64,000 nucleotides of DNA from an uncultured Clostridia bacterium (GTDB lineage: Bacteria; Bacillota; Clostridia; Saccharofermentanales; Saccharofermentanaceae), in the NCBI GenBank assembly GCA_946187935.1, contig CAMHSJ010000001.1, positions 62,001-126,000 on the forward strand. Reading direction: 5' to 3'. Below, one piece after another: positions 38,095 to 49,405 of this stretch (position 1 is its first letter; every line of letters begins with the position of its first letter). The notes under the pieces were generated by a model. It worked only from the letters and a program-made list of their open reading frames with translations. It did not search any database and had not been told where the DNA came from. The translations under genes and the position numbers were made by a program.

Positions 38095-38847
38095 ATGCTT
38101 AAGATAGCTGTTTACGGCAAGGGCGGGATCGGAAAGTCGACCATGACTTCCAATCTGTCTGCTGCTTTTGCAAAGCTCGGCAAGAAGGTCATCCAGATAG
38201 GATGTGACCCCAAGGCTGATTCGACGATCAATCTGCTTGACGGTAAGCCCTTAAAGCCGGTCATAGAGATATTAAGAGAAGGAACTGATCCCACATCCAT
38301 AGAGCAGATCTCGGCAAGAGGGTATGGCGATATCCTCTGCATCGAAACAGGCGGCCCGACACCCGGTCTCGGCTGCGCAGGCAGAGGGATAATCGCTACT
38401 TTTAATCTTCTTGATGAGCTTGGTCTTTTCGAGAAGCTTAAGCCGGATGTCGTTATGTACGATGTCTTAGGCGACGTAGTCTGCGGCGGCTTTGCTGCGC
38501 CCATCAGGGAAGGATATGCAGAGAAGGTCCTGATAGTTACGTCAGGCGAGAAGATGGCACTTTATGCTGCAGGCAATATCTGTCAGGCGGTAAGGAATTT
38601 CGAAGACAGGGGATATGCCCATGTTGAGGGCATCATCCTCAACAAGAGAAACGTCATAGGAGAAGAAGAAAAGGTGGAAGCCTTTGCCAAAGAGAACGGA
38701 GTTTCCATAGTAAGCACCGTTCCCAGAAGCGATGACATCACCATGTGTGAAGACAGGGGCATGACTGTTGTCGAAGGAGCTCCTGACAGTGAGGCTGCAA
38801 AGGAATTCTTAAGACTTGCAAAAGCGCTTATTGAAGGTGATAAGTAA
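38095..38847 (+). CDS. NifH/BchL/CfbC-like nitrogenase iron protein homologue
   Basis: The ATG at 38095 has AAGGAG at good spacing; 250 residues result. The protein has the P-loop GKGGIGKST (residues 8-16), GCDPKADST (37-45), and the two cysteines that bind the bridging [4Fe-4S] cluster: C94 in GLGCAGRG and C130 in DVVCGGFA. In the family this dimer hydrolyses ATP and passes single electrons to a partner complex. It is not the nitrogenase proper by context; it stands first in an operon with two NifDK-like pairs, hyp genes and hydF, and is probably their reductase. It overlaps the next gene as TAATG. Confidence 0.9.
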   Translation: MLKIAVYGKGGIGKSTMTSNLSAAFAKLGKKVIQIGCDPKADSTINLLDGKPLKPVIEILREGTDPTSIEQISARGYGDILCIETGGPTPGLGCAGRGIIATFNLLDELGLFEKLKPDVVMYDVLGDVVCGGFAAPIREGYAEKVLIVTSGEKMALYAAGNICQAVRNFEDRGYAHVEGIILNKRNVIGEEEKVEAFAKENGVSIVSTVPRSDDITMCEDRGMTVVEGAPDSEAAKEFLRLAKALIEGDK

Positions 38848-40172
38848 TGGTTGGCAAAGCGGTAAGTTTTACGGCAGCAGAGCTTGCGGGGCTGGGCAAG
38901 GATAGTATCCCTCCTGAACTCTTATCAGGTCAGGGCTTAGTCTACAGCTCGCCTGCGACGCTCGCTTATAACTCTCCGGGAGCGGAGGGCTTTGGCGTCA
39001 AGCGCGCAGGTCTTTCGGTGCCTGAATCCGTAATGCTCATCCTGGCCCCGGGATGCTGCGGGAGAAATACATCGCTGATCTCGAATATGCCGGGATATAA
39101 GAACCGTTTCTTCTATCTTGAGATGAATGAGGCTGACCTTGTAACGGGCAAGCACTTATCAAGGGTGCCCGAAGCCGTCAGTGAAGTCTGCTCTTTTACC
39201 AGGGAGATCAAGGGCAAAGCTCCCAGGGTGGTAATGATCTGCATTACCTGCGTAGATGCCCTTTTGGGCACAGACATGGAGCGCGTCTGCCGCAAGGCAG
39301 AGGAGGCTCTAAGGCAGAATGGCTTCAGTGATACACGTGTCCGCCCATGCTATATGTACGCACTTACCAGAGAGGGCAGAAGACCCCCGATGGTCCATGT
39401 GAGGCAGACGCTCTATTCGCTATTGGAACCCATGGACAAGGACCCGGGATCCGTAAACATCATTGGTAATTTTGCCCCGCTGGCAGAAGGTGAGCTTCAG
39501 AAATATCTGCGCAAAGCAGGGGTCAGGAATATCAGGCAGATAGGCACATGCGAGAGCTACGATGAGTTCCTCAAGATGGCCTGCGCGAATTTTAACATTG
39601 TTACAGATGCTGAAGTTCGGGCGGCCTGTGAGGATATGAACACAGTTTTGAACATTCCTTACATTGAGCTTACCAGGGTCCACGGGATCGATAAGATATC
39701 TCTCCAGTACCAGGCATTTGCCAGCGCGGCAGGGATCAAGATCGATGACAGTGAGGATAAGAGCCTGGCTTTGGAGGCAGTGGAGGATCTCAGAAGATCT
39801 TACCCTGATCTTACATTCAACATCGGCGAATCTTCTAACTGCAATCCGTTCGAACTTGCAGTGGCTCTTGTCAGGTACGGCTTTAAGGTCGGTGAGATCT
39901 ACAGTAATGTTGCACCCGAAAGATTCGTATATGTAAAGCAGCTTGCAAAGCTCAGCCCTGAAACTAAGATCTTTAGCAACATGGAGCCGACGATGCTCTA
40001 TTACGATGTTTCAGGATCTGAAGCTGACATAACCATCGGCAAGGATGCCGGATACTACTGCCCCGGCATACCTAATATCCCCTGGAATTCTGACATAAAG
40101 CCGTTCGGATATCAGGGCGTTATAGATCTTATGAAGGCAATAAAAGATGCGCTTAAGGAGGGAAGGTCATGA
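38847..40172 (+). CDS. NifD-like nitrogenase component 1 homologue, pair 1 large subunit
   Basis: This 441-residue protein belongs to the nitrogenase component 1 (oxidoreductase/nitrogenase) superfamily. Cysteines that could bind an Fe-S cluster are C70 and C71 (APGCCGRN) and C135 (ICITCVDALLGTD, matching the CxxxxxGDD region of NifD). The C-terminus has a GYQGVIDLM helix typical of these proteins. Residues for FeMo-cofactor binding in NifD were not recognised. It should be the catalytic or scaffold partner of the NifH-like protein, pairing with the small subunit encoded next. Its substrate is unknown. Confidence 0.8.
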   Translation: MVGKAVSFTAAELAGLGKDSIPPELLSGQGLVYSSPATLAYNSPGAEGFGVKRAGLSVPESVMLILAPGCCGRNTSLISNMPGYKNRFFYLEMNEADLVTGKHLSRVPEAVSEVCSFTREIKGKAPRVVMICITCVDALLGTDMERVCRKAEEALRQNGFSDTRVRPCYMYALTREGRRPPMVHVRQTLYSLLEPMDKDPGSVNIIGNFAPLAEGELQKYLRKAGVRNIRQIGTCESYDEFLKMACANFNIVTDAEVRAACEDMNTVLNIPYIELTRVHGIDKISLQYQAFASAAGIKIDDSEDKSLALEAVEDLRRSYPDLTFNIGESSNCNPFELAVALVRYGFKVGEIYSNVAPERFVYVKQLAKLSPETKIFSNMEPTMLYYDVSGSEADITIGKDAGYYCPGIPNIPWNSDIKPFGYQGVIDLMKAIKDALKEGRS

Positions 40173-48213: not shown

Positions 48214-49405
48214 CGATACGCCGTCAGGAGAGAGGATACATATAGGTTTCTTCGGCAGGAGAAACGCAGGCAAGTCCAGTCTCGTAAACAAGGTGACAGG
48301 ACAGGATCTCGCTGTGGTGTCAGATACACTTGGGACGACAACGGATCCTGTATCCAAGGCGATGGAACTCCTGCCCTTAGGACCTGTTGTCATAATCGAC
48401 ACGCCCGGCTTTGACGATGTGGGCGAGCTTGGAATTAAGAGGATATCCAAGACCAGGGCAGTACTTAACAAGGTCGATGTTGCAGTGCTGGTAGTTGATC
48501 TTGTTGAAGGAATGGGAAAGACCGAAGAGCAGCTCATAGGTCTTTTCGAGGAGAAGCTCATACCGTATGTCATAGCTTTTAATAAAGCTGACCTTAAGGA
48601 GACCGTAGTGCCTTCCAAGGATAACGAGATCTATGTAAGCTCTGTCACAGGCAAGAACATAAACGAGCTTAAGGAACTGATAGCAAAGATGGGTTCATCT
48701 AAGGCTCCCGAAGTGCCTCTTATAAGCGATCTCATAGATCCCGGAGATACTGTCATCCTGGTCATCCCCATAGACGGATCGGCTCCGAAGGGAAGGATAA
48801 TCCTCCCGCAGCAGCAGGTCTTAAGAGAAATCTTGGACAGCAATGCGATGGCATATATAACGCAGCCTGAAGAACTCTTGAAAACGATAGAGAACATGAC
48901 TTCAAAACCAAAGATGGTGGTGACAGACAGCCAGGTCTTCGGCAAGCTCAAGAAGATCGTTCCTGATGACATTAAGCTCACATCCTTTTCGATACTGATG
49001 GCAAGGCATAAGGGTTTTCTGAGGTCTGCCGTAAGGGGAGTTAAAGCCATAGACGGTTTAGAAGACGGCGATACCGTTCTCATCTCGGAGGGCTGCACGC
49101 ACCACAGACAGTGCGAGGACATAGGCACATACAAGATCCCAAAGTGGCTTGGTGAATACACGGGCAAGAACATAAAGATAGAGACGACGTCAGGGCTGTC
49201 TTTTGCCGAAGATCTTTCAAAATATAAGATGATCATCCACTGCGGCGCATGCATGTTAAACGACAGGGAGATGACATTTAGGACGAAGTGCGCGGAAGAC
49301 ACAGGCATACCCATGACCAATTACGGGATCGCCATAGCTTACATGAACGGGATACTAAGGCGTTCCCTGGAAGTTCTGCCTGACATATTAAGTGAACTTG
49401 ATTAA
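48203..49405 (+). CDS. hydF: HydF, [FeFe]-hydrogenase maturation GTPase
   Basis: This 400-residue protein is HydF, the scaffold that carries the diiron H-cluster precursor to HydA. It has an N-terminal GTPase with P-loop GRRNAGKSS (18-26), DTPGFDD and NKAD, a dimerisation domain, and the C-terminal cluster domain with EGCTHH (C298, H300) and CGAC (C347, C350), the [4Fe-4S] ligands. GGAGG precedes the ATG at 8 bases. HydE and HydG, the radical SAM partners that normally make its cargo, are not in this window. It is the last clear member of the operon. Confidence 0.95.
   Translation: MSLNDTPSGERIHIGFFGRRNAGKSSLVNKVTGQDLAVVSDTLGTTTDPVSKAMELLPLGPVVIIDTPGFDDVGELGIKRISKTRAVLNKVDVAVLVVDLVEGMGKTEEQLIGLFEEKLIPYVIAFNKADLKETVVPSKDNEIYVSSVTGKNINELKELIAKMGSSKAPEVPLISDLIDPGDTVILVIPIDGSAPKGRIILPQQQVLREILDSNAMAYITQPEELLKTIENMTSKPKMVVTDSQVFGKLKKIVPDDIKLTSFSILMARHKGFLRSAVRGVKAIDGLEDGDTVLISEGCTHHRQCEDIGTYKIPKWLGEYTGKNIKIETTSGLSFAEDLSKYKMIIHCGACMLNDREMTFRTKCAEDTGIPMTNYGIAIAYMNGILRRSLEVLPDILSELD

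Follow-up and report, generated by a model that had tools for sequence, protein, structure and literature searches.

A nitrogenase-like operon as a likely HydG-independent route to the H-cluster of [FeFe] hydrogenases in Clostridia

In the described pathway of [FeFe]-hydrogenase maturation, HydG turns tyrosine into Fe(CN)(CO)2(Cys), HydE converts this product and HydF finishes the work together with the glycine cleavage system, as set out in the accessible part of PMC12752695, and the title of PMC3105041 attributes all five CO and CN ligands of the H-cluster to tyrosine. In [NiFe]-hydrogenase maturation, HypF and HypE make cyanide from carbamoyl phosphate and HypCD carries Fe(CN)2CO, according to the available portion of PMC12134894. 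Here, we analyze a stretch of 64,000 nucleotides (hereafter the window; positions 62,001 to 126,000 of contig CAMHSJ010000001.1) from an uncultured Clostridia bacterium of the Saccharofermentanaceae, in which eleven genes at window positions 38095..49405 of the forward strand join HypCDEF, HydF and a TM1266-family protein to a NifH-like iron protein (NflH) and two pairs of proteins related to nitrogenase component 1, NflD1–NflK1 (pair 1) and NflD2–NflK2 (pair 2). Since this operon is found almost only in genomes without HydG, it is likely that the operon, and pair 2 in particular, represents a HydG-independent route to the H-cluster which replaces HydG.

With canonical HydE–HydF–HydG maturation, the system shares HydE, HydF and TM1266, all over their curated cut-offs, and the same HydA client, whereas no HydG was found here and a nitrogenase-like core stands together with either HypCDEF or an importer instead. 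With [NiFe] maturation, it shares HypC, HypD, HypE and HypF, again over cut-offs and with conserved residues; unlike there, the operon includes HydF, the genome yielded no [NiFe] large subunit, and hypA and hypB are absent from the operon, a genome-wide search for these two not having been made. NifEN is comparable in its work on a cofactor destined for another enzyme, as proposed here, and in that NifE chains are among the best Protein Data Bank (PDB) sequence matches of NflD1, while both large-subunit models have NifEN among their closest fold matches. It differs in that, of the 505 bits needed for nifE, NflD1 reaches 59, NflK1 26 and NflK2 28 (NflD2 gave no match), in its cysteine set, and in that the predicted product here is an iron-CN/CO unit. 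CfbCD, dark-operative protochlorophyllide reductase (DPOR; BchLNB) and methylthio-alkane reductase also combine NifH-like and component-1 proteins of the same fold, the last having been set against the Nfl proteins through PDB matches only. The first two keep different gene company, and NflH scored 311 of 394 bits for nifH, 309 of 402 for CfbC and 206 of 345 for BchL, the score for BchX also staying under its cut-off, while NflD2 reached 34 of 420 bits for BchN. NflH and the four component-1 proteins thus remained under every named nitrogenase-type equivalog cut-off tested. Nitrogen fixation, F430 synthesis and bacteriochlorophyll synthesis were rejected as functions, as no equivalog cut-off was reached and the ligands of the iron–molybdenum cofactor (FeMo-co) are missing.

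The initial annotation had called this an undescribed system, which was too strong, since NifHEN-like genes beside hydrogenase maturation genes appear in a 2012 survey by Dos Santos et al. (PMC3464626). The accessible part of this survey describes, for Coprococcus catus and Dorea longicatena, two linked NifHEN-like sets whose cysteine pattern is similar, those of C. catus being 'associated with hydrogenase maturation proteins' and others lying beside ATP-binding cassette (ABC) transporters. These Group IV pairs of gut Firmicutes are very probably the same proteins as Nfl; the same part of the survey makes no mention of HydG loss, of HydE/HydF, of interchangeable cassettes or of which hydrogenase is concerned. 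No publication tying HydG loss to nitrogenase-like genes was found by searches of the open-access literature; the parts available of PMC10418091, PMC3515406 and PMC13339137 hold nothing on this system, and the 'HydG' of PMC7775391 is an unrelated response regulator. The system appears to be a variant of H-cluster maturation, neither a nitrogenase nor a [NiFe] system, and the HydG swap itself appears to be new in print.

To describe the distribution of HydG and pair 2, we made use of three sets of genomes. An NflD2 profile (model A1) was built from 20 proteins, namely the NflD2 of the window and 19 of 120 listed matches (2079 found). The order set comprised 113 genomes, at least 90% complete, searched for pair 2, HydG, HydA, HydE, HydF, HypD and the [NiFe] large subunit; the class set comprised 373 genomes, each with a completeness of 95% or more apart from the window genome, with up to four candidates scored per genome and pair 2 called above 380 bits; and HydG was searched in 50 of 80 named records holding related loci. 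The sets overlap: the order set contains at least 12 of the 50 genomes from named records, and 8 of the 22 in which pair 2 was found at class level. Paralogs reaching 235-285 bits with model A1, which form a group of their own next to importers and in most cases co-occur with HydG, were excluded from the pair-2 count.

Among the searched genomes with HydE or HydF, HydG and pair 2 are mutually exclusive. HydE exceeded its cut-off in 65 of the 113 genomes of the order, 37 with HydG and 28 with pair 2, none having both and none neither (Fisher 5e-19, related genomes counted as independent); HydG was present in 39 genomes altogether, including G091 and G100, where HydE was not over the cut-off. 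At class level, HydF was detected in 246 of 373 genomes, distributed as 216 with HydG, 22 with pair 2, 8 with neither and none with both (Fisher 4e-25, with the same counting of relatives). HydG was found in 219 of the 373, and all 22 pair-2 genomes carried HydF and none HydG. When stratified by the nine families holding a pair-2 genome, co-occurrence was expected in 14 genomes and seen in none (P = 6e-15). The initial annotation had reasoned that the association would be incidental if all operon genomes also carried hydE, hydG and complete [NiFe] hydrogenase operons and if hyp genes often occurred without the nif-like ones; instead, HydE was over its cut-off in 28/28 pair-2 genomes of the order, the [NiFe] large subunit (PF00374) was found in 0/28, and HydG was over its cut-off in one of the 50 pair-2 genomes from named records, that of Oliverpabstia intestinalis. 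HydF passed in 26 of the 28 (exceptions G073, where it is split, and G088) and HydA in 27. HypCDEF probably does not serve a [NiFe] hydrogenase in the operon genomes of the order, because no large subunit was found in them, and [NiFe] maturation was rejected as the function for the same reason.

Within the genus of the window genome (49 genomes), 23 carry the operon, 18 carry HydG and 8 neither, the latter also being devoid of HydE and HydF. HypD was detected in each of the 23 operon genomes and nowhere else in the genus; outside the genus it occurred in four genomes, each with a [NiFe] subunit. The window genome itself (1.95 Mb, 91% complete) encodes HydE on another contig (572 bits, cut-off 255) and a group A6 [FeFe] hydrogenase, HydA (826 bits, cut-off 765), on the same contig, 35 kb past the window end and adjoining a NuoF-like gene together with a small one placed where NuoE would be expected. 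HydG was not found in the whole genome, the sole match of the HydG model (68 bits) being HydE, nor was a [NiFe] large subunit. Of the genes first listed as missing from the window, hydG and the [NiFe] large subunit are therefore not found genome-wide either, whereas hydE and an [FeFe] hydrogenase are present outside the window.

The exchange is also visible at a common neighbourhood in sister species. Six HydG species of the genus (G033, G038, G044, G074, G075 and G076) carry TM1266-hydE-hydG-hydF there. Among operon sisters, selected because hydE and hydF adjoin each other or are found alone on a contig, four of the six read (G034, G037, G041 and G071) show hydE followed by hydF, no hydG and recognisable neighbours kept, with TM1266 staying at the old site only in G037; of the remaining two, G073 is cut within hydF and G069 has hydE without hydF. 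HydA is 97.8% identical between operon-bearing G041 and HydG-type G044, and 94.7% identical between the window genome (G000) and HydG-type G045. In 23 chosen loci, the L1-L3 motifs of HydA are alike in the operon and HydG kinds, L1 reading TSCSPGW in both; the H-cluster motifs are intact in 4/4 operon HydAs read, and in G086, of the importer type described below, L1 lies outside the frame read. One and the same HydA is paired with either maturation set. As nearly the same HydA serves species with HydG, the suggestion in the initial annotation of a new metallocofactor is unsupported. In a HydA tree of 30 of the 49 genomes (leaving out the HydAs of G086, G106 and G107 and genomes with neither system), the HydG/operon label takes 6 changes (5-7 in bootstrap trees). 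Because this label needs several changes and near-identical HydA pairs with either set, the swap probably happened repeatedly.

The question of which part of the operon stands in for HydG was approached through the 22 pair-2 genomes of the class. Fourteen carry NflH1-NflDK1-HypFCDE (HypD found by search in 8 genomes of the window's genus, genes read at the loci of the other 6), six carry an importer and two have neither within ~7 kb. The importer consists of a permease, an ATPase and a binding protein, resembling the BtuC/FecCD/IsdE families of iron, haem or corrinoid type without reaching an equivalog. In genome G332, a single run reads HydE-NflH2-NflD2-NflK2-binding protein-permease-ATPase-HydF-TM1266, and HydE, HydF or TM1266 were located within pair-2 operons at the loci read. 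In trees made, like the residue counts below, from representative loci, sampled pair-2 large subunits of both cassette types form one group (95/100), pair 1 forms a separate group (96/100), and importer-linked relatives that mostly coexist with HydG fall outside both. HypCDEF had been considered as the essential HydG replacement; this was dropped and the core reassigned to pair 2, because in genus g4 all five genomes with pair 2 possess the importer and have neither HypD nor HydG. As pair 2 is constant with both cassette types and forms a single group, it looks like the constant replacement of HydG, with HypCDEF plus pair 1 and the importer appearing as alternative, exchangeable suppliers.

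A separate group of NflH-NflD-NflK operons was seen at L127-L133 and on the Treponema saccharophilum plasmid pTS1 (L186), most with a binding protein, permease and ATPase. Those members of this group that lie in HydG-bearing genomes cannot be replacing HydG.

Comparison thus gives strong support to a role in place of HydG; the division of labour among the Nfl, Hyp and Hyd proteins can be put as a working model, the chemistry of which is inferred. From what is known of their families, HypF and HypE would convert carbamoyl phosphate to cyanide on the C-terminal cysteine of HypE and HypCD would hold iron with CN and CO, so that the Hyp proteins may be the source of cyanide and probably of the first iron unit. 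NflH would drive ATP-gated low-potential electrons into both NflD1K1 and NflD2K2. NflD1K1 probably serves the Hyp step, perhaps by making CO, as it was seen only with HypCDEF in the loci read, whereas NflD2K2 would reduce and remodel the iron unit, giving an Fe(CN)(CO)2-type synthon that passes to HydE; from there on, completion of the [2Fe] unit by HydE and HydF and its transfer to HydA would follow the usual course. Where the Hyp cassette is absent, the ABC importer may instead bring the iron unit or a precursor from outside. The more specific version, in which NflH-NflD2K2 assembles the Fe-CO-CN synthon and is fed either by the iron-dicyanide-carbonyl of HypCDEF, its CO made by NflH-NflD1K1 from a C1 unit reduced at the expense of ATP, or by an iron complex, organometallic or other, taken up from neighbouring organisms, is put forward only tentatively. 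The initial annotation had suggested an Fe-CN/CO precursor, perhaps destined for HydF, that the nitrogenase-like complexes may process or hold; such processing fits the data, whereas the role as a HydG stand-in, the core position of pair 2, the exchangeable nature of HypCDEF plus pair 1 and the presence of HydE and HydA had been missed.

Several observations weigh against the replacement of HydG by this operon or against parts of the proposed scheme. In six of the 22 class genomes pair 2 is accompanied by the importer with no neighbouring Hyp gene, the five g4 genomes have no HypD at all, and the two genomes with neither cassette add to these, so that the type can do without HypCDEF. Labelling work on [NiFe] maturation in R. 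eutropha speaks against one version of the CO step, having ruled out, in the part available of PMC12134894, added CO2 as the direct CO source. Oliverpabstia intestinalis has pair 2 together with a separate TM1266-HydE-HydG-HydF cluster. The eight class genomes with HydF and neither HydG nor pair 2 include G282, with a HydG piece at a contig end, and G284 (L138), G375 (L139) and G407 (L140), which are 99% complete and show hydE and hydF near TM1266 with no hydG and no pair 2 found; as these keep hydE and hydF without hydG, a third maturation solution may exist. HydA is under its cut-off in G040 and contains a TAG in G086, and 7 of the 8 genus members without HydG and operon have HydA over its cut-off and no HydE/HydF, so that HydA alone is no proof of a finished H-cluster. 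The starred branches of the HydA tree force just 2 label changes. Finally, the Fisher tests take kin genomes as independent, the class search was restricted to four candidates per genome at most, and many genomes are drafts of tens to hundreds of contigs.

Draft status, indeed, is what would favour reading the exclusion as an artefact, produced by incomplete assembly or by a HydG too diverged for the model to recognise, and a motif search found no typical hydG in five of eight Clostridium acetogens, naming atypical candidates (PMC9431212, in its accessible part, where the question of the missing typical hydG in these five is left open). Yet completeness thresholds of 90% and 95% had been applied to the sets, the HydG model detects HydG in 39/113 and 219/373 genomes, the expected hydG site was read through in sister species and is empty, and missing data alone would not yield zero genomes with both, which together make this explanation very improbable. 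Somewhat less remote, although still unlikely, is that the nitrogenase-like complexes build no organometallic unit and that HypCDEF releases CN and CO to HydE/HydF, NflH and NflDK acting as reductants or iron donors. According to the accessible text of PMC9431212, HydF and HydE alone give ~1% activation, raised by exogenous CO or CN, and Fe(CN)2CO is known to be held by HypCD, as given in part of PMC12134894; the constant partner of HydG loss is, however, pair 2 and not Hyp, and the importer-type class genomes and the HypD-less g4 genomes just described all lack HydG. That the operon makes another Fe-CN/CO cofactor for an unknown enzyme, HydG having been lost either because the H-cluster draws on this supply too or for some unrelated cause, gains something from distant pair-2 relatives with the same kind of importer, which coexist with HydG in G084, G219, G247 and G277 and so must do something else. 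This possibility seems quite improbable given TM1266, HydF and HydE within the operons and the absence of HydG in every pair-2 genome of the order and class sets.

HydA over its cut-off with no HydE/HydF/HydG and no pair 2 was observed in G035, G046, G047, G050, G052, G057 and G068 and in further genomes of families f2 and f4, and the HydA motifs were intact in nine read from such genomes. These HydA-only genomes may reflect incomplete assembly, an unmatured enzyme or a further maturation route.

If the replacement of HydG by pair 2 holds, a widespread HydG-free route would mean that the H-cluster can be built from a feedstock other than tyrosine, and it could explain the maturation of the putative [FeFe] hydrogenase in HydG-less relatives of Blautia, Coprococcus, Roseburia, Eubacterium and Olsenella. 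An ATP-driven reductase beside HypCDEF would be a concrete candidate for the CO step. In one human faecal study, Cluster IV or pseudo-nifH genes made up 39 of 44 nifH operational taxonomic units (PMC4995403; PMC8597730, as far as these texts were accessible); such genes, which can be miscounted as nitrogen fixers, would thereby acquire a function. Should NflH-NflD2K2 indeed assemble the synthon, [FeFe], [NiFe] and nitrogenase cofactor biosynthesis would be joined in one pathway and many 'pseudo-nifH' genes of gut Clostridia would be given this role.

The window operon is a run on one strand in the order NflH-NflD1-NflK1-HypF-HypC-HypD-HypE-TM1266-NflD2-NflK2-HydF, all eleven genes being without internal stop and neighbours being separated by no more than 8 bases or overlapping by no more than 17. 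NflH (38095..38847; Pfam Fer4_NifH, 298 bits) is a NifH-like ATP-dependent iron protein, joined by a TAATG junction to NflD1 (38847..40172), the large subunit of the Hyp-linked pair 1, which shows the component-1 fold, its own tree group and an Oxidored_nitro match of 92 bits. An ATGA junction leads to the small subunit NflK1 (40169..41098; Oxidored_nitro, 33 bits) and a further TAATG to the carbamoyltransferase HypF (41098..43371; TIGR00143, 754 bits, cut-off 466). After a single base follow the chaperone HypC (43373..43585; N-terminus MC; TIGR00074, 55.6 bits, cut-off 48), HypD, the scaffold of the Fe(CN)2CO unit (43582..44625; TIGR00075, 365 bits, cut-off 193), and HypE, which ends in PRIC with the thiocyanate cysteine (44622..45626; TIGR02124, 405 bits, cut-off 252), these three being linked by ATGA junctions. 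Eight bases separate HypE from the TM1266-family [FeFe]-hydrogenase system protein (45635..45883; TIGR03959, 108 bits, cut-off 61), which overlaps by 17 bases with NflD2 (45867..47168), the large subunit of pair 2 and marker of the HydG-less type, supported by Oxidored_nitro (40 bits), the tree and an AlphaFold model. NflD2 overlaps by 8 bases with its small subunit NflK2 (47161..48213; Oxidored_nitro, 69 bits), and NflK2 by 11 with HydF, the H-cluster scaffold GTPase with CxH...HCxxC (48203..49405; TIGR03918, 544 bits, cut-off 326). The eleven-gene unit and its junctions are hence as first annotated, and the names given to HypF, HypC, HypD, HypE, TM1266 and HydF are borne out by their NCBIfam cut-offs.

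At the level of residues, the cluster cysteines C94 and C130 of NflH are kept in 22/22 rows, C37 and C42 of NflK1 in 13/13 and C37 of NflK2 in 20/20. NflD2 keeps cysteines aligned to Cys88 and Cys154 of NifD, whereas alignment revealed no conserved counterparts in NflD1 or NflD2 of Cys275 and His442 of NifD, the FeMo-co ligands. The C-terminal PRIC of HypE is present in 14/14 rows, the Cys2 column of HypC in 13/13 and CxH...HCxxC of HydF in 12/12, and the CxxxCxxC of HydE, the conserved cysteines of HypD and the motifs of HypF are kept. AlphaFold models of NflD2 and NflD1 (mean predicted local distance difference test scores of 85 and 86) resemble PDB chains of nitrogenase component 1 and of NifEN, with template-modelling scores of ~0.6-0.69.

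The NflD2 profile gave 406 loci in named genomes, and the best 80 were kept, so that the gene-order count favours close relatives. NflD1-NflK1-HypF-C-D-E-NflD2-NflK2 is complete in 59 of these 80 and has the same order on a single strand in all 59; as gene order is conserved in related loci, a chance association is excluded. Of the other 21, 19 are truncated, the contig breaking off within 7 kb on the upstream side of NflD2; in L046 and L056 pair 2 comes first. At least one Hyp gene occurs in 76/80 loci, HydF or HydE lies in the fetched stretch of 47/80, and HydG was found in none of the 80 fetched stretches. The loci come from records named Saccharofermentans, Mageeibacillus, Blautia, Roseburia faecis, Coprococcus comes, Coprococcus catus, Eubacterium and Coriobacteriia (Olsenella, Atopobiaceae). 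In the window, there is a single NflH for both pairs, whereas a second NflH precedes pair 2 in many Lachnospiraceae and some Olsenella-type operons (L029, L042, L045, L054, L066, L072 and others).

Around the operon, a hairpin of 14 pairs with a T-rich tail (38058..38094, forward strand) lies directly 5' of the NflH start codon and, as a pattern match only, may be a leader or the terminator of an upstream transcript; terminator-like matches in the region number 7 against a shuffled mean of 9.6, and promoter and terminator scans both gave counts under those of shuffles. No Rfam families or tRNAs were detected in the window. Elsewhere in the window, larE, larB and larC of the nickel-pincer cofactor pathway (19541-22246, minus strand) adjoin feoB (17035-19371). 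Downstream, 12 bases 3' of HydF, the forward strand encodes an NAD(P)H-hydrate epimerase (49418..50059; TIGR00197, 142 bits, cut-off 89), which is probably a passenger, being found behind HydF in 2 of the 80 loci only (L002 and L003).

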